A stretch of 12,079 nucleotides of DNA from a candidate division WOR-3 bacterium (GTDB lineage Bacteria > SDB-A). The notes under the pieces are model-generated. The model was not told the origin of the DNA, made no database searches, and was given only the letters and a program-made list of their open reading frames with translations. The stretch covers positions 1-12,079 of the forward strand of contig JAFGON010000008.1 in the NCBI GenBank assembly GCA_016926475.1. Reading direction: 5' to 3'. Numbering within the stretch: the stretch's first letter is position 1; the number at the start of each line of letters is the position of its first letter. Made by a program: the position numbers and the translations under genes. Positions 1 through 11,605 of this stretch are shown piece after piece.

Positions 1-2331
1 ATGTCACCAAAAAAACCGGAATGGCGAATAATTATTGATCTTCTCGAAGAAGCGAATCCCGCGCTCTACAAAAGACTCGGAAGAAGAATGATGAATTACC
101 TTTTCAAAAAAAACATAACAAAGATAGAAAACATAGTTCTCAACATAGACAAATCCGTGACCATGTTCGATTTTGAGGAAAGCCTTGACGATAATCAGCC
201 CCACCCGAGGATAAACACTCAGACTCTCGAAAAACTCATAGGCGAGGTGTTCAACATAGCAGAAGACGAGTTGGGCGAGCAGGAAATCACCGAAGTCATT
301 AGGATGTGGATAAAGAACGAAAACGTCCATTTTCTCATGAAGTCAGCAGAAAAAAGAGACGTCGCCTTTGACGAGATTCACAAAGCGCTTTACACGTTTT
401 CCAACCAGCCCCACTTAAAAGACGCACTGACGCAGGAAGACAGGCTTGGAGTCAGAGTCGCCCTGATAAGAAGATTTTTGAGCAACAACCTTTCATACAT
501 AAACACTCTAAAAGACCACATAACACTTGACGATTTCATAGACATCCTGAACAAGACCATAGGCCCATCAAAAGGAAACGGAAAACTCGGCGGTAAAGCC
601 GCTGGAATGATACGGGCGAAACAGATACTAAAAAGCAAATCTGCTGAGTTACCTGTACTTTCAGAAATAAAAACGCCAAAAACATGGTTTGTCACTTCCG
701 ACGGAATTTTCGAATTTCTGCATTCCAACGCTCTGGAAGAATTTCAAAGGATCAAGTACCACGCACCCGTCGAAATAAGAAGAGAATACCCCTATATAGA
801 ACAAATCTTCAAAAACTCGATAATGCCTCTTGAGTTCATATCCATGCTTAGCGTCGCTCTCGATGACTTCGGCGATTCTCCGATAATAGTCCGATCATCA
901 AGTTTGCTCGAAGACAGCCCTGAAGCCGCATTCGCGGGTAAATATAAAAGCCTTTTCGTTTCAAACCAGGGTACAAAAAAAGAACGGCTTGAAGCTCTGA
1001 TAGACGCCATAGAAGAAGTTTACGCAAGCGTATTCAGCCCGGACGTTCTTGAATACAGGAGAGAAAACGGACTCCTGGATTTCAACGAAGAAATGGCTCT
1101 TATGATTCAGGAAGTTGTAGGGACAAAAGTTGGCAAATACTACCTTCCAGCTTTCGCCGGAGTCGCCTTCACCGACAACGAATTCAGATGGTCGCCGAGG
1201 ATAAAAAAAGAAGACGGCATAATAAGGCTTGTCGCTGGTCTCGGTACAAGGGCTGTCGACAGGATAGGTGATGATTATCCGCTGCTTCTCTGCCCCGGCC
1301 AGCCAGGGCTAAAAGTGAATTCCACTCCCGAAGAGACGCTTCATTACTCGCAAAAGTGCGTGGACGTCATAAACCTCCAGACCAGAAAATTCGAATCCCT
1401 TCCTCTTAAGAAAATGATAGAGGAGATCGGTTATTCTCTTCCCGGACTCACCGACATTATTTCATTGTTTTCCGAAAACCAGCTCCACCAGGCGGTAGGG
1501 ACGATGATAGACTTTTCGAAAGGTGAACCTGTCATAACATTCTCCAACCTCATCAAGAAGGGTAAATTCATCAACTACATAAAGACCATGCTCGACGTCT
1601 TGAAAAAATCGCTGGGGTACCCCGTTGACATTGAATTCGCCTACAACGCGGTAAACGAGAATTTTTACCTGCTCCAGTGCAGACCACAAAGTCATTCAAG
1701 AGAGACAATATCTGTTTCGATGCCCCGCGATATACAGGCGGAAAAGATACTTTTCACGGCGAAAAGATACGTCACAAACGGCCTGGTCAAAGACATCCGG
1801 TACATAGTTTTGGTTGATCCGTCGGCGTACGATTCTCTCGAAGAACTCAACGACCTGATCACAGTCGGAAAAATAATATCGGATCTCAACTCTGACCTTC
1901 CGAAAAAAAGTTTCATACTTGCAGGACCCGGAAGATGGGGGAGCAGAGGGGACATAAAACTCGGAGTCAGAGTGACATACAGCGACATAAACAACACGGC
2001 TATGCTCATTGAGATAGCCAAACAGAAAAAAGGCTACATGCCGGAACTCTCTTTCGGCACCCATTTTTTCCAAGACCTCGTAGAATCGCAGATTAAGTAC
2101 CTCCCCCTTTACCCGGACGATGAAGACAGCGTCTTCAACAATGAATTTTTCTCACACTCAAAAAACACCCTTTCTTCTCTCGCCAAAATCCCTAAGGATA
2201 AAAAGAAACTTTTTGAAAGTGTGGTGAAAGTCATAGACCTTGAAGCCGAATCCCCGGGGATGAAGGCTGAAATAGTCATGGACGGAGACTCTTCATACGC
2301 AATCGCGTTTTTAAAAAACGACGATAAATAA
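1..2331 (+). CDS. PEP synthase/PPDK-type ATP-binding domain protein without phosphohistidine domain
   Basis: The 776-residue protein has three parts. Residues 1-185 are a helix-rich N-terminal region. Residues about 190-565 are a pyruvate phosphate dikinase (PPDK) / PEP synthase ATP-grasp domain. Residues about 575-776 are a distinct C-terminal domain. Visible ATP-domain landmarks are GGKAAG (K199), VRSSS (R298) followed by EDSPEAAFAG, DIEF (D543, E545) and LLQCRPQ (Q559, R561). These match the nucleotide-binding residues known from PPDK, so ATP binding is likely intact. The usual partner domains, a phosphohistidine swivel with a TSGG-x-x-CHAA-type motif and a PEP/pyruvate barrel, are absent. 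The C-terminal domain has GPGRWGS (642-648) and SFGTHFF (684-690), both shared with the next gene. The ATG is the first base of the window, so no upstream signals can be judged, but the N-terminus looks complete. Database entries of this type are often called PEP synthase; I do not think that reaction is supported. The substrate is unknown. Confidence 0.85.
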   Translation: MSPKKPEWRIIIDLLEEANPALYKRLGRRMMNYLFKKNITKIENIVLNIDKSVTMFDFEESLDDNQPHPRINTQTLEKLIGEVFNIAEDELGEQEITEVIRMWIKNENVHFLMKSAEKRDVAFDEIHKALYTFSNQPHLKDALTQEDRLGVRVALIRRFLSNNLSYINTLKDHITLDDFIDILNKTIGPSKGNGKLGGKAAGMIRAKQILKSKSAELPVLSEIKTPKTWFVTSDGIFEFLHSNALEEFQRIKYHAPVEIRREYPYIEQIFKNSIMPLEFISMLSVALDDFGDSPIIVRSSSLLEDSPEAAFAGKYKSLFVSNQGTKKERLEALIDAIEEVYASVFSPDVLEYRRENGLLDFNEEMALMIQEVVGTKVGKYYLPAFAGVAFTDNEFRWSPRIKKEDGIIRLVAGLGTRAVDRIGDDYPLLLCPGQPGLKVNSTPEETLHYSQKCVDVINLQTRKFESLPLKKMIEEIGYSLPGLTDIISLFSENQLHQAVGTMIDFSKGEPVITFSNLIKKGKFINYIKTMLDVLKKSLGYPVDIEFAYNAVNENFYLLQCRPQSHSRETISVSMPRDIQAEKILFTAKRYVTNGLVKDIRYIVLVDPSAYDSLEELNDLITVGKIISDLNSDLPKKSFILAGPGRWGSRGDIKLGVRVTYSDINNTAMLIEIAKQKKGYMPELSFGTHFFQDLVESQIKYLPLYPDDEDSVFNNEFFSHSKNTLSSLAKIPKDKKKLFESVVKVIDLEAESPGMKAEIVMDGDSSYAIAFLKNDDK

Positions 2332-2335
2332 CTAG

Positions 2336-5290
2336 ATGAAAAAAAACGAAATTGAACAATACGAAGAAAATCTAAGGATAACCTCTGACATAAACAGAGA
2401 GCTTTCCCCCTTCAAAACAAGAGAGATACTCGTAGTCGCGACCTTATACGACTCTTTTATAATAGAAGAGGAGGGTCTTCTGAGCGACATGCTCTTCGAA
2501 GAATATTTCAAGATAAGCCTCGCGGACGCGCCGAGGATAACTTCCGTCTATTCAAAGGACAGGGCTCTTTCTGCCCTCAGAGAGAAAATGTTCGACCTCG
2601 TCATACTGACAATGAGAATAGACGACTTTCAACCCTACGAAGCAAGCGTCTCAATAAGGGAAACAAACCCCGACCTTCCGATATTCCTTTTGCTAAACGA
2701 CAATTCAGACATCAAAATCTTTGAGCAGTGGAAAGGAAAACCAAACGCTATAGACAAAGTTTTTATCTGGAACGGGGACGCTAAAATTTTCCTCGCCATG
2801 AGCAAATTTGTCGAAGACTCAAAAAACGTCGACACTGATACTTCGCTTGCTTCTGTCAGAGTCATACTGCTCGTCGAAGATTCACCGGTATACTACTCAA
2901 GGTATCTGCCTCTTTTGTACAGAGAGATAATTAAACAGACTCACCACCTTATCAAAGAGGAAAAGTTCGACGAAAAAAGAAAGATCACGAGGTACAAAAC
3001 CCGTCCTAAAATACTCCTCGCCTCAACATTTGAACAAGCCCTTCAGATTTACGAAAAGTACAAACCATACGTCATGTGCCTTATCACCGACATGGCTTTC
3101 CCAAAAAATGGGGAAATTTCCGAAAGGTCAGGTATTGAACTCATCGAGAAATTAAAAACGTCAGACCCTGGTTTGATAACCCTCTTGCAATCCTCCGATC
3201 CCGGGGCAAAGACAAAAGCCCAAAATTTTCAGGTAGGTTTCATAGACAAGAACTCGGAAATACTCTCTTCTCAGGTCAGGGATTTCATTCAAAACACTCT
3301 CGGTTTCGGTCCTTTTTTGTTTAAAAACGAAAACGGCGAAATTATAGAAATCGCTAACAACCTCGAAGAATTCGAGGAAAAGATAGAAAAAATACCAGAA
3401 GAATCGGTTTTGTATCACTTCGAGAGAAATGATTTCGCAACCTGGTTTTCTGCAAGAGGAGAATTCAAAATTGCAGAGAGCCTCAAAAAACTCCCAGTAG
3501 AGAATTTTGAGAGCTCAAAAGAGATAAAATTTCACCTCAGCAACCTGACTAAACTCGTCGAATACAAAAGAGCGAAGGGAAAAATAATCAATTTCGACGA
3601 CAAATACCTCACCGAGGGAGACAGTATCTTAAGGCTTTGCGCGGGATCTTTGGGAGGTAAAGCAAGAGGCATAGCTTTTATAAACTCCCTTCTGCAAAAC
3701 AGCGCCCTTGAGAATTCGGTCCCAGGGGCGAGTATTAAAATTCCCAAAACTTACGTCATTGGCACCGATTCATTCGACAGGTTCATCGAAGATAACGGAC
3801 TTCTTGAATTCGCCATAAGAGAGCGCGACCATCAGAAAATAAAACAGAAATTTCTGTCCTGCTCCCTGCCTGCCGACCTGGAAAAGAAAGCGAGAATCCT
3901 CTTGCAGAAAGTGGTTCAACCCCTCGCCGTCAGATCCACCGCCGTATTTGAAGATTCGATATCGCATCCTTTCTCAGGCATCTATGAGACCTACATAATA
4001 CCCAATTCAAACTACAACTTTGAAAAGAGGTTCAAGCAGTTCACAGACGCCGTCAAACTCGTGTACGCCTCTGTGTATTCGCAAGTAGCCAAGACCTATT
4101 TTGAATCCATTGGCTACAGCATAGAAGAGGAGAAAATGGCGGTCGTAGTCCAAAAACTCATTGGAAATAGCGTGAACGGAAGTTTTTATCCCTCCTTTTC
4201 GGGGGTCGCCCAATCATACAACTACTACCCGATTTCCTACATCAAACCCGAAGAAGGCATAGCTGTTTTGGCTCTTGGACTTGGAACATACGTGGTTGAT
4301 GGAGACAGAGCTTTCAGGTTTTGTCCAAATCATCCGAAAATTGATTTCTACACACCTGAAGATCTGTTGAAAAATTCTCAGACCTACTTCTGGGCTCTCG
4401 ACATGAATAAAAATGAAATCGACCTCTCTCAGGGAGAGGAAATCACACTCGTCAAATCGAACCTCGACAGAGCTGAAATGGACGGTCGACTGAAAGACAT
4501 AGCATCGGTATGGGATTGGCAGAATAACAGGTTTTCCAGCCACCTGGGTACAGAGGGTCCAAGGGTGATCAATTTCGCAAACATAATAAAGTACGGATCC
4601 TTTCCACTCGCTGATATACTCCAAAAACTTCTGAATGTATTCAATACGGCGCTGGGGACCCCCGTGGAAATCGAATTCGCAGTAGAACTCGGAAAAAGAC
4701 CCGTGTTTTACATTCTCCAGCTAAAGCCTTTCATAAGAAGCTCCGGCGAGGGAGACATTAATTTTTCAGAAATCGAAGGGAAGGAAATTTTCATTTTGAC
4801 CAATCAGTCTCTCGGCAACGGCAAGGTAGAGGGAATAAGGGACATGATCTGCGTGATTCCCGAAAGGTTCGATAAAATGTCAACTCCGAAAATCGCCGAA
4901 GAAATCGAATGTTTCAACCAGAAACTGAAAACATCCAAAAAACATTACCTGCTCGTAGGTCCCGGCAGATGGGGAACGAGCGACAGACTGCTCGGCATAC
5001 CGGTCAAGTGGAATCAGATATCCGCCGCCAAAACGATAGTAGAATACGGTATGGAGGGTTTTCAGATAGACCCTTCTCTCGGGTCGCATTTTTTCCACAA
5101 CATCACCAGCCTGAACATAGGTTACCTGACTATCCCTTTTAGAAGTGAAAAAGACTTCATAGACTGGCAATTTCTCGAAAAAGGCAGGAAAGTTGAAGAA
5201 AAAAACTACACAGCTCACATTGAATTCGAAGACCATTTAAAAGTGCTGATGGACGGAAGGCAAGGCAGGGCCTCGGTTTACTTCGACTGA
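2336..5290 (+). CDS. Receiver-domain fused PEP synthase/PPDK-type ATP-binding protein
   Basis: This 984-residue paralogue of the upstream gene has a signalling front end. Residues about 28-160 look like a degenerate receiver: T92 sits where the phospho-aspartate is expected, and the acidic pocket and lysine are not evident. Residues about 174-325 look like a second receiver with acidic pair E181-D182, phosphoacceptor candidate D252 (LITDMAFP), S286/S287 and K305. A linker region follows, then the ATP-grasp domain (about 435-800): GSLGGKARG (K442), AVRSTAVFED (R533), VEIEF (E778, E780) and LQLKP (Q795, K797). The C-terminal domain repeats GPGRWGT (875-881) and SLGSHFF (914-920). No phosphohistidine or PEP-binding domain is present. 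The start lies 4 bp after the previous stop with no clear Shine-Dalgarno sequence, so translation is probably coupled. The layout suggests an ATP-dependent activity switched by phosphorylation. The kinase is not in this window and the substrate is unknown. Confidence 0.85.
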   Translation: MKKNEIEQYEENLRITSDINRELSPFKTREILVVATLYDSFIIEEEGLLSDMLFEEYFKISLADAPRITSVYSKDRALSALREKMFDLVILTMRIDDFQPYEASVSIRETNPDLPIFLLLNDNSDIKIFEQWKGKPNAIDKVFIWNGDAKIFLAMSKFVEDSKNVDTDTSLASVRVILLVEDSPVYYSRYLPLLYREIIKQTHHLIKEEKFDEKRKITRYKTRPKILLASTFEQALQIYEKYKPYVMCLITDMAFPKNGEISERSGIELIEKLKTSDPGLITLLQSSDPGAKTKAQNFQVGFIDKNSEILSSQVRDFIQNTLGFGPFLFKNENGEIIEIANNLEEFEEKIEKIPEESVLYHFERNDFATWFSARGEFKIAESLKKLPVENFESSKEIKFHLSNLTKLVEYKRAKGKIINFDDKYLTEGDSILRLCAGSLGGKARGIAFINSLLQNSALENSVPGASIKIPKTYVIGTDSFDRFIEDNGLLEFAIRERDHQKIKQKFLSCSLPADLEKKARILLQKVVQPLAVRSTAVFEDSISHPFSGIYETYIIPNSNYNFEKRFKQFTDAVKLVYASVYSQVAKTYFESIGYSIEEEKMAVVVQKLIGNSVNGSFYPSFSGVAQSYNYYPISYIKPEEGIAVLALGLGTYVVDGDRAFRFCPNHPKIDFYTPEDLLKNSQTYFWALDMNKNEIDLSQGEEITLVKSNLDRAEMDGRLKDIASVWDWQNNRFSSHLGTEGPRVINFANIIKYGSFPLADILQKLLNVFNTALGTPVEIEFAVELGKRPVFYILQLKPFIRSSGEGDINFSEIEGKEIFILTNQSLGNGKVEGIRDMICVIPERFDKMSTPKIAEEIECFNQKLKTSKKHYLLVGPGRWGTSDRLLGIPVKWNQISAAKTIVEYGMEGFQIDPSLGSHFFHNITSLNIGYLTIPFRSEKDFIDWQFLEKGRKVEEKNYTAHIEFEDHLKVLMDGRQGRASVYFD

Positions 5291-6743: not shown

Positions 6744-7328
6744 ATGGGAGAAACAAATGAAAAGGAAATTGTCCGGAAAATAATATCCGGAGACCAGGAT
6801 GCTCTCGCTTCTTTCATAGACTCCTACAAAAAACTCGTTTTTCACGTAGCGGGAAAACTCATAGACGATCGGGACGACCTCGAAGACGCCTGCCAGGACA
6901 TATTCATAAAGATACACGGCGGTCTCGGCAGTTTCGACCACAAGTGCAAACTCTCTACATGGATAGCAAAAATTTCTTATAACCATGCCTGCAACTTCAT
7001 AAAAAAAAGAAAAAAGACGACAAATTTCAGCGTTCTATCCCAAAAATCTTCCGGCAATGAAGACTTTCTTTTAGACATTGAAAACGACAAACCTTTCATG
7101 AAAAATGACCTCGGAGATTCTCAGATACTCGAAAGGTGTCTGGATAAACTCGACCCTGTCAAAAGAGAGATGGTCTACCTCTACCATTTGGAGAATTTTT
7201 CATACGAAGAAATATCTTCTTGTCTTTCCATGCCCATGGGAACAGTTAAAAACCACCTCTTTAGGGCTCGAAAAATATTGAAAAATATGTTATTGAAATA
7301 CAAGGAGAAGGTAAATGAAGCATCTTGA
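6744..7328 (+). CDS. ECF-family RNA polymerase sigma factor
   Basis: This 194-residue protein has only the two domains of an ECF (group 4) sigma-70 factor. Residues about 15-90 are region 2, including DDLEDACQDIFIKI for core-polymerase contact and the FDHKCKLSTWIAKISYNHA stretch for -10 recognition and melting. Residues about 128-182 are region 4, with LDPVKREMVYL, FSYEEISSCLSMPMGTVKN and HLFRARKIL forming the helix-turn-helix that reads the -35. Residues 91-125 are a variable linker. The gene overlaps the anti-sigma gene by 14 bp, the classic cotranscribed regulator pair. The ATG has no Shine-Dalgarno sequence and follows a TATAAT box by six bases. The protein should direct polymerase to a small regulon, probably including its own promoter and the divergent gene. 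The inducing signal is unknown. Confidence 0.93.
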   Translation: MGETNEKEIVRKIISGDQDALASFIDSYKKLVFHVAGKLIDDRDDLEDACQDIFIKIHGGLGSFDHKCKLSTWIAKISYNHACNFIKKRKKTTNFSVLSQKSSGNEDFLLDIENDKPFMKNDLGDSQILERCLDKLDPVKREMVYLYHLENFSYEEISSCLSMPMGTVKNHLFRARKILKNMLLKYKEKVNEAS

Positions 7329-7791
7329 CGAGATTTCAATCCAAACATTTTTGGAAAATGGCGGAAAAGATCTGCCTATAAAAGAACATCTCGACCAATG
7401 CGAAGAATGCAGAAGGTTAGTGAAAGAATACGAACTTCTCTTTCAGAGTCTACTCCTGACGGACAAAAAGGATAAACTCCCTCTTGAGTTCACCCAAAAA
7501 TGCATCTTGGCAATTGAATCCAAAAAAGCGTTTTCAAGAAGAATCAGAATTTTCTTCTATTCTTTGTCCGCTTTACTGGTTTTGGCTTTATCGTCTCTAT
7601 ACGCACTTTTATTTTTAAACTACACAACTTTTTTCAAACCTTTTTGCCAATTTTTCTCCAGATTTCCACAAAATTTCTCTTTTGTCGGCAACATCCGTTC
7701 GGGCAGTTTTTCTTCAATTGTTTTTCTTATACTCCTGACTGTTTTATTCTCTGATATTTTCCTCAGAGGTCGAATCTGGAAACTACGGTAG
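7315..7791 (+). CDS. Membrane-bound zinc-type (ZAS) anti-sigma factor
   Basis: The 158-residue protein has a short cytoplasmic domain carrying HLDQCEEC (H25, C29, C32), the His-x3-Cys-x2-Cys signature of zinc-binding anti-sigma factors. H3 could be the fourth ligand. Two hydrophobic segments follow at about 79-101 and 133-150, with a roughly 30-residue aromatic-rich loop between them and a short basic tail. With the ZAS domain in the cytoplasm, the loop would face the periplasm and could sense the signal. Most relatives have one membrane helix, so the second is slightly unusual. The start overlaps the end of the sigma gene and is preceded by AAGGAG with a 7-nt spacing. Inferred role: it holds the adjacent sigma factor inactive until released, by redox change at the zinc site or by proteolysis. 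The gene ends 4 bp from the convergent cyclase gene. Confidence 0.85.
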   Translation: MKHLDEISIQTFLENGGKDLPIKEHLDQCEECRRLVKEYELLFQSLLLTDKKDKLPLEFTQKCILAIESKKAFSRRIRIFFYSLSALLVLALSSLYALLFLNYTTFFKPFCQFFSRFPQNFSFVGNIRSGSFSSIVFLILLTVLFSDIFLRGRIWKLR

Positions 7792-7795
7792 AATT

Positions 7796-10700
7796 TCAAG
7801 AAACCAGCTCTTCGTATTTTTCAAGATAGCTTAGCTGTTTGAACTCTTTCGAATCCCCTTCAATGACCTTTTTATAATAAGCCGCCGCTCTTGATTTGGC
7901 AGTTTGATCTCCTTTGACCTTCCAGATTGCGTAGTGAATCTCGGCTGTCAGATCATCATCGCGATATTTACCGATCATTTCATAAAGATATGCCGCCGCC
8001 TTTTCCTTTTCTTCCGTCTCTGAAAGGTACAGAGCGTGGTTCAGCTCGTGTTTGAACATCATAAAATCGTTTTTAATCTTTTTCGACAACTCATATAGTT
8101 CGTTGTTGATTTCCACCGCTTCGTCGAATTTTTTTGTCAAAATTTTCAGGTAGAATTTTATATCGAGGGTCTGACCCAGAATATGATCCTTTCCGGACAG
8201 CTTTGCCATGCCGGCGGCTTTTTCTATGTATTCAAGAGCTTGTTCATACATGCCTTTTCTCCTCTTGATGTCGCATAAATTTATCAAACAAAATATCTGC
8301 ATTACTATATCGCCTATTTCAACGGCCATTTCATAAGCCTTCTCGAGCATACCAAGTGCTTCGTCCAGTTTTTTTCTGCTCATCAATATTAGCGCAATGT
8401 TGTTAAGCGTTATAAGAAGCCCTTGCCTTTCCTGCAACTTTTCGTGAATCTTCAGTGCTTTGTGGTAATAAAAAAGCGCTTTGTCTAAATCCAGTTTTAT
8501 TTCCATGTAGGATAAACCGAGATTTCCGTAGAGTATACCCTTCGCAGATTCGCTGCCTATCTTTTCGGCTAGCTCGACAGCCTTTTCCAGATAATCAAAA
8601 ACCTTTTCAAAACCCAACTGCCTCCCGAAAAATACTGCGTTTCTGCTGTAGCTCTTCGCAAGCAAATTCAAATTTTCATTTGTTTGAGAGATTTCGCACA
8701 ACTTACGCGCCTCTTCGAGTGCTTTTTTCGCCCAGGGGTATCCCTCCTCTTCTAAATTCAGATAATGGTGGTACATGGCTATACTTTCAAGGGTCTCTAT
8801 GAGGGTGACAGGGTTTTCAGTGTATCGAATAATTTTTTTTAAAATCTCATGCGTTTTTTTTATTTCCCCGATGTCTCCAGTCTCCAGATATACATCGAAT
8901 ATGATGTTTATCAGCGCGCAATACTGCTCGCTGAAGGGTTTCACATGTTCAAGGGTTTTTTTGGCCAGTTCAAGTGATTTTTTGTATTCCGGTATCTTTG
9001 AAAGCAGTCTAATCCATTTTATTCTGTTTTCCGTTTTTTCAACACCCGACAAATAACCGTCCAGCGTCCGGGCGTAATGGAGTGAATCCTCTTTCAAACC
9101 CATTTTTCTGGCGTAATCAAAGGCTGTTTTACCAGTCTTGACGATTTTTTCCGAGTTTTCGGCTTTTTCCCAATGGGATAATAGTTCTCTGTAATGGCAG
9201 GTCAAATCCTTGGAATATATCCGCTCTATTATCTGAGCCGCGAAAGAGTGCAGTTTTCTCAGTTTTCCTTTGAGCATCATGTGGTAAACAGAATCTCTTA
9301 TGAGGACGTGTTTGAACATGTATCTGATTTTTTCAAGTTTTATCCATATAAGCTCGTTTTCCCCTGATCTGAGATCTTTGTTTATCCTCTTTTTGCCGAG
9401 CATTTCTGTCAAAACTTCGACTGCGAATTCTTTTCCGAGCACCGAAGCGTTTCTGACCGTCTCTTTGAAGTCTTCGGCGAGCCTGTCGAACCTCGCCGTT
9501 ATCACCGAATTTATATCCGCGGGTATTTCCTCTGTCTGTCCGATGACGTTCATATTTTCATCCAGCAACTTATTTTCCAGAAAATACAGGCAGAACTGCT
9601 CCAGGAAGAAAGGGTTACCTCCAGTTTTTGCGTGGAAGTATTCAACGGTTTCTACGGGTATGCTTTTCCTCTGGAGCTTTATCTTCAGCATTCTCTCAGT
9701 GAGATCGAGCTTGAAATTTTCAAGCTTCAACCTCCTGATGTCACAAAACTGTATTTCTGTCTCAAAAGGTTTTCCGTCGTCTTTCAACCTGCTAGTAAAA
9801 AAGAAGACAAACGGATAATTTTCCACGTTTCTCGACAAGATTTTTATCAATTCGACAGAATCCTTGTCCGCGCAGTGAAAGTCGTCGACGACGAGAACTA
9901 TCGGTTTTATTAGGGAAAGCGCTTTGATAAAAGCTTTGAAGGCGTATGAAAAATTTTCGATTATCTGTTCCGGTTTTAAACCGGAAAATTCGAGGCTCTC
10001 ATTTTCAGTCGCAATGTAATGGATTAAATACGCTTTTCCCAGTAACAGCTCTTTTTTCAACGTTCTGTCCTTCAATTTAAGGAACAGTTCCTGTATGACC
10101 TTTTCCAGATCCCCGATATTTTTGGAAACATAATTCCTTAGAAATTCGACGAAGGGAAAAAGGCTTTCGCGTTCAGCGGATTCAAAAGGCAGATTTACCG
10201 TTACAAAATTGTTTTCCACATGCTTTTCGCATAAAACATCCGACAGAAGTTGACTTTTCCCCGTTCCAGGCTCTCCGTCAATAAAAACCGCCCCGCCATT
10301 CATCTTGTACGTCAAAACTTTCTCAAGCGCGTCCAGCAGTATTTTCTTTTCATTTTCTCTGCCTATCGTGTCGAATGCCCTCGTTCGGTCATCCCGCTTA
10401 TCTTTTAAACTTTGGGCGAGAAAAATTTCCACCTTATCTTTTATTCCCTTTAAACTCTGTTTTCCCAGGGATTTGACGATCAACCTTCCCCTGAGCGTCG
10501 ACAAAAAGTCTTTGTCGACAAGAATCTGTCCTTTTTCCGCTTTTTGGGCGAGTCTCGCCGAAAGGTTTACGCATCTGCCCATGACGGTGTACTCGCAGGC
10601 TAAGTATGAACCGATCAACCCGGCGTAAACTGTTCCTCTTGCAATGCCTGTAGCCGAAGCGTCACTGTCCTTTGTATTAATGTCTTTGGAGTATCTGAAT

Positions 10701-11605
10701 GCCATCTCCGCCGGCTTTTCTACAGCGGTGGGAGCACCAAAAACCGCCATGACGACAGAACCTTTGTCCCCTACAACGGCTTTGTTGAGAAAACCGCCGT
10801 ATTTAACGGCAATTTTCTCCGCATAAGCGACTTTTCGGGAAAAATTTTCCACCCCCTCGAAGGAAGTGAAGCAGACCGAGACTTCCCTGAATTCTCCCAT
10901 TTCTCTTTTTTCCAAAATGTTTGAAGGGATAAAAACTTTCTGAGTTTTGAAATAATCCCTTTCCCAGGGCTTTATTAAGGGCTTTGCTCTTGATTCTGCC
11001 GAGAAAGCTTTTTTTGAAAGATGCCTGAAGGTAAAATTTCCTCTATCAGGTAAATCGGTTTTTACATCAGGGGAGACTTTGATTTCGTATCCCATGCACC
11101 TTTTCAAAAGGTCCGCGGTCTCGTAAAAAGGTTTTCCCGAAAAATAATAGGTATGTCTTTTTCCGCATTTGACTATATTAAGCTCGGCTATACCCATGGA
11201 CAGAGCTGTTTTGGGTGAAAAGACGAATTTGCCGAATTTCGTTTTGACCGGGTTTATACGATTGAACTCTTCTGTTATTTCATACGCGGCTGAAAGAGCT
11301 CTCGATGAACACCTTTTTAGACCTCTTTTAGCCTCGAAAATAGCGTAAAATGCGTCCCCGGCGAAGACGATTACTTGTCCATGGCGTCTTTCCACTATAT
11401 CAATGGCGGGTGTGAAAACCGCGTTGATGATTTGGGAGAGAATTTCAGCTCCTTCTCTGCCGTTTCCCGTTAGTTCCTCTGTTACACGAGTGAACCCTGT
11501 GATGTCGAGGAAAATAATCGTTCCTTTAATGCTTTCATGGAACTTTTTTTCCTTGAAAAACTTCACTACTTTTTGAGGGAGATAACGCCTATTTGTCACT
11601 CTCAT
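7796..11605 (-). CDS. Soluble-adenylyl-cyclase-like protein: two cyclase domains, ATPase and TPR repeats
   Basis: The 1269-residue protein has, in order, a class III cyclase domain C1 (about 26-180), a second cyclase domain C2 (about 238-400), a P-loop ATPase (about 412-700) with Walker A GEPGTGKS (444-451), Walker B LVVDD (571-575) and GGNPFFLEQ (662-670), and a TPR-like helical tail (about 815-1265). C1 has both metal-binding aspartates, D34 in FLDITGF and D84 in FAGDA, but not the Asn/Arg pair. C2 has serine at both metal positions (S248, S283) but keeps K281 in GDKG, T340, N347 and R351 in YTVMGRCVNLSAR. The two domains therefore make one composite active site. The Lys/Thr pair predicts ATP as substrate and cAMP as product. 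No membrane segment or signal peptide is seen, so the protein is probably cytosolic. AAGGAA lies 6 nt before the ATG. The ATPase and TPR parts probably regulate the cyclase or bind partners. Confidence 0.9.
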   Translation of the reverse strand: MRVTNRRYLPQKVVKFFKEKKFHESIKGTIIFLDITGFTRVTEELTGNGREGAEILSQIINAVFTPAIDIVERRHGQVIVFAGDAFYAIFEAKRGLKRCSSRALSAAYEITEEFNRINPVKTKFGKFVFSPKTALSMGIAELNIVKCGKRHTYYFSGKPFYETADLLKRCMGYEIKVSPDVKTDLPDRGNFTFRHLSKKAFSAESRAKPLIKPWERDYFKTQKVFIPSNILEKREMGEFREVSVCFTSFEGVENFSRKVAYAEKIAVKYGGFLNKAVVGDKGSVVMAVFGAPTAVEKPAEMAFRYSKDINTKDSDASATGIARGTVYAGLIGSYLACEYTVMGRCVNLSARLAQKAEKGQILVDKDFLSTLRGRLIVKSLGKQSLKGIKDKVEIFLAQSLKDKRDDRTRAFDTIGRENEKKILLDALEKVLTYKMNGGAVFIDGEPGTGKSQLLSDVLCEKHVENNFVTVNLPFESAERESLFPFVEFLRNYVSKNIGDLEKVIQELFLKLKDRTLKKELLLGKAYLIHYIATENESLEFSGLKPEQIIENFSYAFKAFIKALSLIKPIVLVVDDFHCADKDSVELIKILSRNVENYPFVFFFTSRLKDDGKPFETEIQFCDIRRLKLENFKLDLTERMLKIKLQRKSIPVETVEYFHAKTGGNPFFLEQFCLYFLENKLLDENMNVIGQTEEIPADINSVITARFDRLAEDFKETVRNASVLGKEFAVEVLTEMLGKKRINKDLRSGENELIWIKLEKIRYMFKHVLIRDSVYHMMLKGKLRKLHSFAAQIIERIYSKDLTCHYRELLSHWEKAENSEKIVKTGKTAFDYARKMGLKEDSLHYARTLDGYLSGVEKTENRIKWIRLLSKIPEYKKSLELAKKTLEHVKPFSEQYCALINIIFDVYLETGDIGEIKKTHEILKKIIRYTENPVTLIETLESIAMYHHYLNLEEEGYPWAKKALEEARKLCEISQTNENLNLLAKSYSRNAVFFGRQLGFEKVFDYLEKAVELAEKIGSESAKGILYGNLGLSYMEIKLDLDKALFYYHKALKIHEKLQERQGLLITLNNIALILMSRKKLDEALGMLEKAYEMAVEIGDIVMQIFCLINLCDIKRRKGMYEQALEYIEKAAGMAKLSGKDHILGQTLDIKFYLKILTKKFDEAVEINNELYELSKKIKNDFMMFKHELNHALYLSETEEKEKAAAYLYEMIGKYRDDDLTAEIHYAIWKVKGDQTAKSRAAAYYKKVIEGDSKEFKQLSYLEKYEELVS

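Follow-up and report, generated by a model that had tools for sequence, protein, structure and literature searches.

What does an ATP-grasp protein of the PPDK and PEP synthase type do once the PEP/pyruvate domain is gone, and what would carry the phosphoryl group in it? The question is raised by two adjacent genes, here called P1 and P2, at the start of the window (the whole stretch of DNA analysed, 12,079 nucleotides of a candidate division WOR-3 genome, contig C8). A sequence-only reading had held that both proteins keep the ATP-binding domain, have lost the phosphohistidine and PEP domains, and end in a shared domain whose invariant histidine could serve a different carrier.

Two tandem ATP-grasp proteins

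The features of the two genes, all on the plus strand, are as follows.

1-2331, plus strand: P1, ATP-grasp protein of 776 aa; its ATG is base 1 of the contig; Pfam PPDK_N, E 2e-54
1-582, plus strand: P1 N-terminal all-helical region, residues 1-194; helices from the AlphaFold model
583-1731, plus strand: P1 ATP-grasp domain, residues 195-577, with all nucleotide-site motifs (PPDK_N, invariant residues, Z 22-27 to RPH and PEP synthase structures)
1732-2328, plus strand: P1 C-terminal GPGRWG domain, residues 578-776; judged from structure alignment, probably a divergent phosphohistidine swivel domain
1924-1944, plus strand: P1 GPGRWGS motif, residues 642-648 (GPGRWG, 642-647, at 1924-1941); GPGRWG invariant in 65 homologues
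2050-2070, plus strand: P1 SFGTHFF motif, residues 684-690, with the His688 codon at 2062-2064; invariant in 65 homologues except for the second position
2336-5290, plus strand: P2, response-regulator/ATP-grasp protein of 984 aa; P1 paralogue, 4 bp downstream
2417-2830, plus strand: P2 first receiver-like domain, about residues 28-165 (Response_reg match at 56-120, strands and helices of the model); phospho-acceptor Asp apparently lost
2852-3307, plus strand: P2 second receiver domain, residues 173-324; acid pair, Asp252 and Lys305 kept; Z 12-15 to REC domains
3350-3544, plus strand: P2 DUF5752-like segment, residues 339-403; PF19027, E 1.5e-5
3647-4744, plus strand: P2 ATP-grasp domain, residues 438-803; PPDK_N, E 2.6e-37
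4757-5287, plus strand: P2 C-terminal GPGRWG domain, residues 808-984; related to the P1 domain; model aligns to the phosphohistidine-domain end of 2ols, 1dik and 5hv3
4958-4978, plus strand: P2 GPGRWGT motif, residues 875-881 (GPGRWG, 875-880, at 4958-4975), from conservation
5075-5095, plus strand: P2 SLGSHFF motif, residues 914-920, with the His918 codon at 5087-5089, from conservation

The P1 stop codon (2329-2331) and the P2 ATG (2336) are 4 bp apart, and the two proteins are 31% identical over 527 columns (BLASTP, E 2e-55) in an alignment that runs from the ATP-grasp domain through GPGRWG...S-x-G-(T/S)-H-F-F. The C-terminal 205 aa of P1, used as the sole query in this genome, retrieve P2 at E 2.9e-12. 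The tandem arrangement, the relatedness of the two frames and the shared C-terminal domain reported by the sequence-only reading are thus confirmed. Its motif coordinates, its spacing of 43-46 residues and its H688/H918 numbering are all correct; from the start of GPGRWG to the histidine there are 46 residues in P1 and 43 in P2. Despite lying at the contig edge, P1 is complete, because its ATG at the first base coincides with the starts of its orthologues.

Pfam matches PPDK_N alone in P1; in P2 it adds Response_reg and part of DUF5752 to PPDK_N. No family matches the N-terminal region of P1 (residues 1-194). In the second receiver of P2 the acidic pair (ED), D252 and K305 are conserved among REC-bearing homologues, and with its REC fold, acidic pair, phospho-acceptor Asp and Lys this receiver gives P2 the N-terminus of a response regulator. 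Residues 339-403, between the receiver and ATP-grasp domains, resemble the C-terminal portion of the uncharacterised family DUF5752.

PEP-utilizers and PEP-utilizers_C have no Pfam match in either protein even at E 1, which bears out the earlier claim that the PEP/pyruvate domain is missing; the C-terminal domain leaves no residues in either chain for such a barrel. The RPH-type small-molecule (drug) binding domain is likewise absent by Pfam from P1 and P2. Lacking both a PEP/pyruvate barrel and a RIF-type substrate domain, P1 and P2 cannot be PEP synthases or PPDKs. Membership in those families is ruled out by the absent TIM barrel, although the PPDK_N ATP-grasp domain with its catalytic residues is present; the full-length PEP synthase equivalog models score 63 and 62 bits, below their cut-offs of 598 and 740.

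Downstream of P2, window positions 6744-7791 encode an ECF-type sigma factor (Sigma70_r2/r4) and then a small protein that weakly resembles a zinc finger and is probably the cognate anti-sigma factor. On the minus strand, 7796-11605 encodes a 1269 aa protein that combines an adenylate/guanylate cyclase catalytic domain, an AAA ATPase and TPR repeats; it is conserved as a neighbour of P2 in the sister genomes L018 and L019.

The C-terminal domain and its predicted fold

The C-terminal-domain alignment was scanned against 84,980 species genomes, which confirmed at least 562 relatives, and the best 80 of these were kept. Those 80 come from Acidobacteriota, Bacteroidota, Ignavibacteriota, Calditrichota, Chloroflexota, Planctomycetota, Spirochaetota, Lentisphaerota, Bacillota, Thermoplasmatota and unclassified lineages. 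Among 65 diverse P1-like sequences the invariant C-terminal residues are G642-G647, E671, S684, G686, T687, H688, F689, F690, D692 and E695, and in 28 P2-like sequences GxGRWG, D883, E903, S914, G916, H918, F919 and F920 are at least 90% conserved. Conservation of GPGRWG...SxG(T/S)HFF exceeds chance by far, and the histidine is invariant in the P1-like proteins and nearly so in the P2-like ones. The ATP-grasp domain is retained as well: PPDK_N is found in both proteins, and G197, G198, K199, R298, E304, D305, E545, Q559 and R561 are invariant in the 65 P1-like sequences.

Scans of Pfam, NCBIfam, PADLOC and PHROGs yielded no name for the C-terminal domain; the C-terminal regions of P1 and P2 drew nothing credible from Pfam up to E 10, and weak PADLOC matches were confined to the nucleotidyltransferase extension of one homologue. 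A profile search of this region had been named as a check on the sequence-only reading, and it matched no known domain of other function. Against PDB sequences, phmmer gave a confident match only for the ATP-grasp domain, and otherwise weak REC matches. Comparison with the phosphohistidine domain PF00391 by hhalign, first with three alignments and later, locally as well as globally, with one of 118 sequences, gave a probability below 1% and no support for homology. The canonical carrier motif T/S-x-x-G-G-x-x-x-H (PMC12167813) is absent from the domain. Because profile-profile comparison with PF00391 gave nothing, the argument for a carrier is a structural one.

AlphaFold2 models were obtained for P1 (pLDDT 88.4, pTM 0.84) and P2 (pLDDT 84.9, pTM 0.71) and compared with known structures by VIA-align 2, in which the ranges are end points and not residue pairs. 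P1 155-772 aligns with PEP synthase 2ols 12-467 (Z 26.1, 364 residues), P1 155-774 with PPDK 1dik 11-513 (Z 18.1, 351 residues), and P1 109-714 with rifampin phosphotransferase 5hv3 up to residue 866 (Z 27.3, 381 residues). For P2, residues 419-984 align with 2ols 4-467 and 1dik 2-511, and residues 420-984 with 5hv3 to 866. We take 1dik 511-513, 2ols 467 and 5hv3 866 to be the ends of the phosphohistidine domains. Alignments of the ATP-grasp domain alone cover 230-287 residues, and the full ones add about 75-120. In RPH the catalytic His825 lies at the C-terminus (PMC4844700). Chain continuity cannot explain the RPH match, because the RPH carrier is hundreds of residues away from its ATP-grasp domain.

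In the P1 model a strand (601-605), a helix (616-632), a strand (638-643), a short helix (660-663) and a strand (668-672) are followed by the SFGT loop, a helix (688-695) that starts at His688, a strand (699-703) and a C-terminal hairpin with MDG. Known carriers run V-I-L-V, T-S-P-E-D, G-I-L-T, GGMTSH-helix, P-C-V and ...DG, and the order of elements in P1 parallels this by eye rather than by computed superposition. The b-a-b-[loop-His]-a-b order is the same in both, with the invariant histidine opening a helix; since the alignments are defined by end points, no pairing of one histidine with the other is implied. Because the models align to the ends of the phosphohistidine domains and the element order agrees, the domain is more probably the same carrier in a highly divergent form than a different one, and we consider it likely, on the predicted models, that the C-terminal domain is a remote phosphohistidine swivel carrier. 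The earlier claim that the carrier is missing therefore holds for the profile libraries, in which PF00391 has no match, and probably fails for the predicted fold, which looks carrier-like itself. Its corollary, replacement by a different carrier, is not supported by the models, which superpose on PPDK, PEP synthase and RPH to the end of the phosphohistidine domain. Judged from the models, the PEP/pyruvate barrel is probably the only part truly missing relative to PPDK and PEP synthase.

We also considered a split system with the carrier encoded elsewhere. The idea was rejected: PF00391 matches a single gene in the genome, a frame of 1018 residues on contig C29 whose carrier sequence is typical of PPDK, and this gene does not encode a carrier standing by itself. 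Because that gene carries the canonical PPDK-type sequence, P1 and P2 are not merely subunits in want of a free carrier.

Two clades linked to glutamate dehydrogenase

A tree of the shared region separated P1-like and P2-like sequences into two clades with 100/100 support, each containing bacteria and archaea; the P1/P2 split is an old duplication. Short P2 forms of about 580 residues have no receivers and lie directly upstream of P1, usually with a spacing of a few bases or an overlap. Many P1 relatives are longer, about 1060 residues, with some 150 additional N-terminal residues, for which a GAF-like similarity was weak (E 0.02, in one of three sequences), and, at the C-terminus, a nucleotidyltransferase whose PF01909/PF18765 scores exceed or approach the cut-off. 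In these long forms (e.g., L032:7850-11032, L023:15436-18594 and many more) a minimal nucleotidyltransferase, GSTxxxTAGPxSDIDL, is fused C-terminally and a sensor-like domain N-terminally; judged from its sequence, the nucleotidyltransferase could possibly provide a second modifying activity. An additional P2-type gene of greater length, with open frames of about 1150-1570 aa, is present in several other genomes, and at L162:3633-9513 a tandem pair of P2-type genes adjoins gdh. P2 is rare in the class of G074 (3 of 99 sampled genomes at E 1e-60).

Both P1 and P2 are linked to genes for glutamate dehydrogenase (GDH). Unbiased clustering of neighbour genes singled out GDH, and by tblastn gdh lies directly upstream of P1 on the same strand in 48 of the 69 testable loci; an ORF-based count of 38/68 is too low, owing to spurious antisense ORFs in GC-rich contigs, and was not used. 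The linkage occurs in Acidobacteriota, Bacteroidota, Calditrichota, Ignavibacteriota, Spirochaetota, Lentisphaerota, Bacillota, Thermoplasmatota and others. The gdh genes beside P1 belong to a single type, for which the archaeal GdhA model is the best match although they score below its cut-off. Stand-alone P2 with receivers often adjoins a second type (L025, L027, L060, L068, L073, L077, L079), which matches the NADP-specific model at 751 bits against a cut-off of 536, and both systems occur together in L060, L073, L079 and L083.

In our source genome the first 155 residues of gdh were found at the end of contig C21 (86884-87348 of 87350), pointing outward. The contig break very probably falls inside gdh, since the start of that gene ends C21, P1 opens C8, and in the sister genomes gdh ends 50-57 bp before P1. 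Contigs C21 and C8 probably join across a gap of less than about 1 kb.

P2 was present at E 1e-100 in 64 of 70 genomes of one order, presumably Bacteroidales, judging by the family's named members. It also adjoins gdh, again of the NADP type, in Parabacteroides distasonis and Phocaeicola massiliensis, and the Bacteroidales protein WP_041525632.1, annotated without a function as "PEP/pyruvate-binding domain-containing protein", is a full-length P2 homologue adjoining gdhA. A gdh gene lies within 1.5 kb in 5 of 20 sampled Bacteroidales P2 loci and none that close in 15. When three named records are added to the 20, gdh is the commonest neighbour family (7/23), with the next at 4/23.

P1 loci without an adjacent gdh belong mainly to a Chloroflexota/Planctomycetota branch and make up most of its members; in three checked exceptions (L099, L104, L105) gdh was found 7-8 kb upstream. 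In five Chloroflexota loci where P1 has no adjacent gdh (L097, L099, L101, L104, L105), a DNA polymerase III beta-subunit gene and a DUF5671 protein gene lie just upstream. These Chloroflexota/Planctomycetota loci, together with the 15 Bacteroidales loci, count against GDH as the target, and gene linkage alone does not prove that GDH is one. A calcineurin-type phosphoesterase is encoded near 19 P1 loci; the protein, of about 285 aa, lies beside the operon and often on the opposite strand (L032, L054, L073, L079 and about 15 more).

A proposed function and its alternatives

A close precedent is VadK (Rv1127c) of M. tuberculosis, which combines an ATP-grasp with a phosphohistidine domain but has no PEP domain; it phosphorylates itself on His422 and modulates the methylcitrate-cycle enzymes to which it binds (PMC13400623). 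P1 and P2 would share its plan of a PPDK-derived ATP-grasp plus a His domain, with no PEP/pyruvate domain, if the C-terminal domain is a carrier; by analogy, VadK offers a precedent for enzyme regulation by interaction, and we propose the same role for P1 and P2. They differ in that VadK retains a recognisable PPDK central domain, whereas their C-terminal domain is unrecognised by sequence, and in being two paralogues with receiver, sensor and nucleotidyltransferase fusions and a GDH linkage in place of the methylcitrate cycle. RPH, of the small-molecule dikinase clade (PMC4844700), has the structurally nearest ATP-grasp domain (Z 26-27) and a C-terminal carrier, but P1 and P2 have neither its drug/substrate-binding domain nor the canonical GGxTSH carrier motif. 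The two-component dikinases HpeHI and phenylphosphate synthase (PMC12167813) similarly spread PPDK-like chemistry over two gene products. In these systems one subunit has the ATP-grasp and the other the carrier and substrate domains, in contrast to P1 and P2, which each have an ATP-grasp and a C-terminal domain. With PEP synthase and PPDK themselves the likeness is in the ATP-grasp motifs and in the succession of ATP-grasp and carrier-like domains; the PEP/pyruvate barrel is absent and the carrier motif not recognisable. The most probable mode of action for P1 and P2 is that of a regulatory dikinase that has been truncated and whose carrier has diverged strongly.

We propose that P1 and P2 are a paralogous, sensor-fitted pair of regulatory dikinases dedicated to GDH that phosphorylate their own C-terminal histidine, a proposal whose chances we put at about even. 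The linkage, architecture, conservation and two ancient clades beneath it are observed, and the carrier fold is a prediction from the models. The ATP-grasp domain would bind ATP and transfer a phosphoryl group to the invariant histidine (H688 in P1, H918 in P2), as in PPDK and rifampin phosphotransferase, with the C-terminal domain swinging as a remote phosphohistidine carrier. A protein partner is favoured because neither P1 nor P2 has a substrate domain. The acceptor, or the partner that senses the phospho-form, would then be a different protein. The likeliest candidate is the GDH encoded next to the pair, and its activity would be switched when the phospho-form binds it or passes phosphate to it or to a partner protein. 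Phosphorylation of the histidine, GDH as the target and the effect on GDH activity are what we infer. The receiver domains of P2 and the sensor-like N-terminal and nucleotidyltransferase domains of many P1 relatives may set the level, and the metallophosphoesterase beside some operons, a candidate reversing enzyme, may undo the modification. We regard as doubtful a stronger form of the proposal: the two paralogous dikinases, their carrier belonging to a new sequence class, would modify GDH covalently and so switch it on or off, one paralogue per GDH type.

P1 and P2 could also regulate GDH with no phosphohistidine chemistry at all, the ATP-grasp domain sensing ATP/ADP or ligating, adenylylating or binding GDH, and the GPGRWG and histidine motifs forming a nucleotide or metabolite site in a domain that is not a carrier. 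The C-terminal domain has no sequence similarity to carriers, its other invariant residues (R645, W646, E671, D692, E695) suggest a binding site of its own, and a nucleotidyltransferase is also present in many P1 relatives. Nevertheless, both models align over the entire carrier domain in three enzyme families and the invariant histidine opens a helix after a Ser/Gly/Thr loop, and we think this explanation rather unlikely.

A role as small-molecule dikinases seems less probable still. Here the ATP-grasp and carrier would phosphorylate a metabolite of the glutamate/2-oxoglutarate pathway to which GDH belongs, in the manner of RPH or HpeHI, and the structures nearest to the ATP-grasp domain (RPH and PEP synthase), the operon shared with a metabolic enzyme (gdh) and the known two-component examples (PMC12167813) all fit. 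Neither protein has a PEP barrel or a RIF-binding domain, however, the receiver, sensor-like and nucleotidyltransferase fusions are regulatory in style, and two GDH types are paired with two paralogues. Least probable is phosphotransfer through a truly different carrier, unrelated to the swivel domain and with no particular tie to GDH, as the sequence-only reading had it: the domain is unmatched in Pfam, NCBIfam and profile comparison and its histidine is invariant, but the structure alignments, the agreeing order of strands and helices and the GDH linkage make it very improbable.

What is new in the regulatory-dikinase reading is the link to GDH, an enzyme that connects carbon with nitrogen metabolism. 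Trans-acting control of Bacteroides GDH was reportedly described by Baggio and Morrison in 1996, to go by their title, and a report of 1987 is said to concern reversible in vivo inactivation of the Bacteroides fragilis enzyme. The literature on reversible GDH inactivation in Bacteroides and on a link between GDH and PPDK yielded nothing naming the P1/P2 family. P2 homologues adjoining gdh in related genera may tie the family to this trans control, as a lead and not as proof. If the stronger form of the proposal were true, it would describe a hitherto unrecognised signalling system spread across many bacterial phyla and the Thermoplasmatota and would identify the factor behind the reported trans-acting control of Bacteroides GDH. 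The old question of what controls that enzyme in trans becomes testable in genetically tractable gut commensals. The family is now annotated as "PEP synthase" or "PEP/pyruvate-binding protein", and a correction would end its misreading as gluconeogenic enzymes. A conserved pair of this type travelling with GDH across phyla would add a large and so far overlooked class to the known metabolic regulators.
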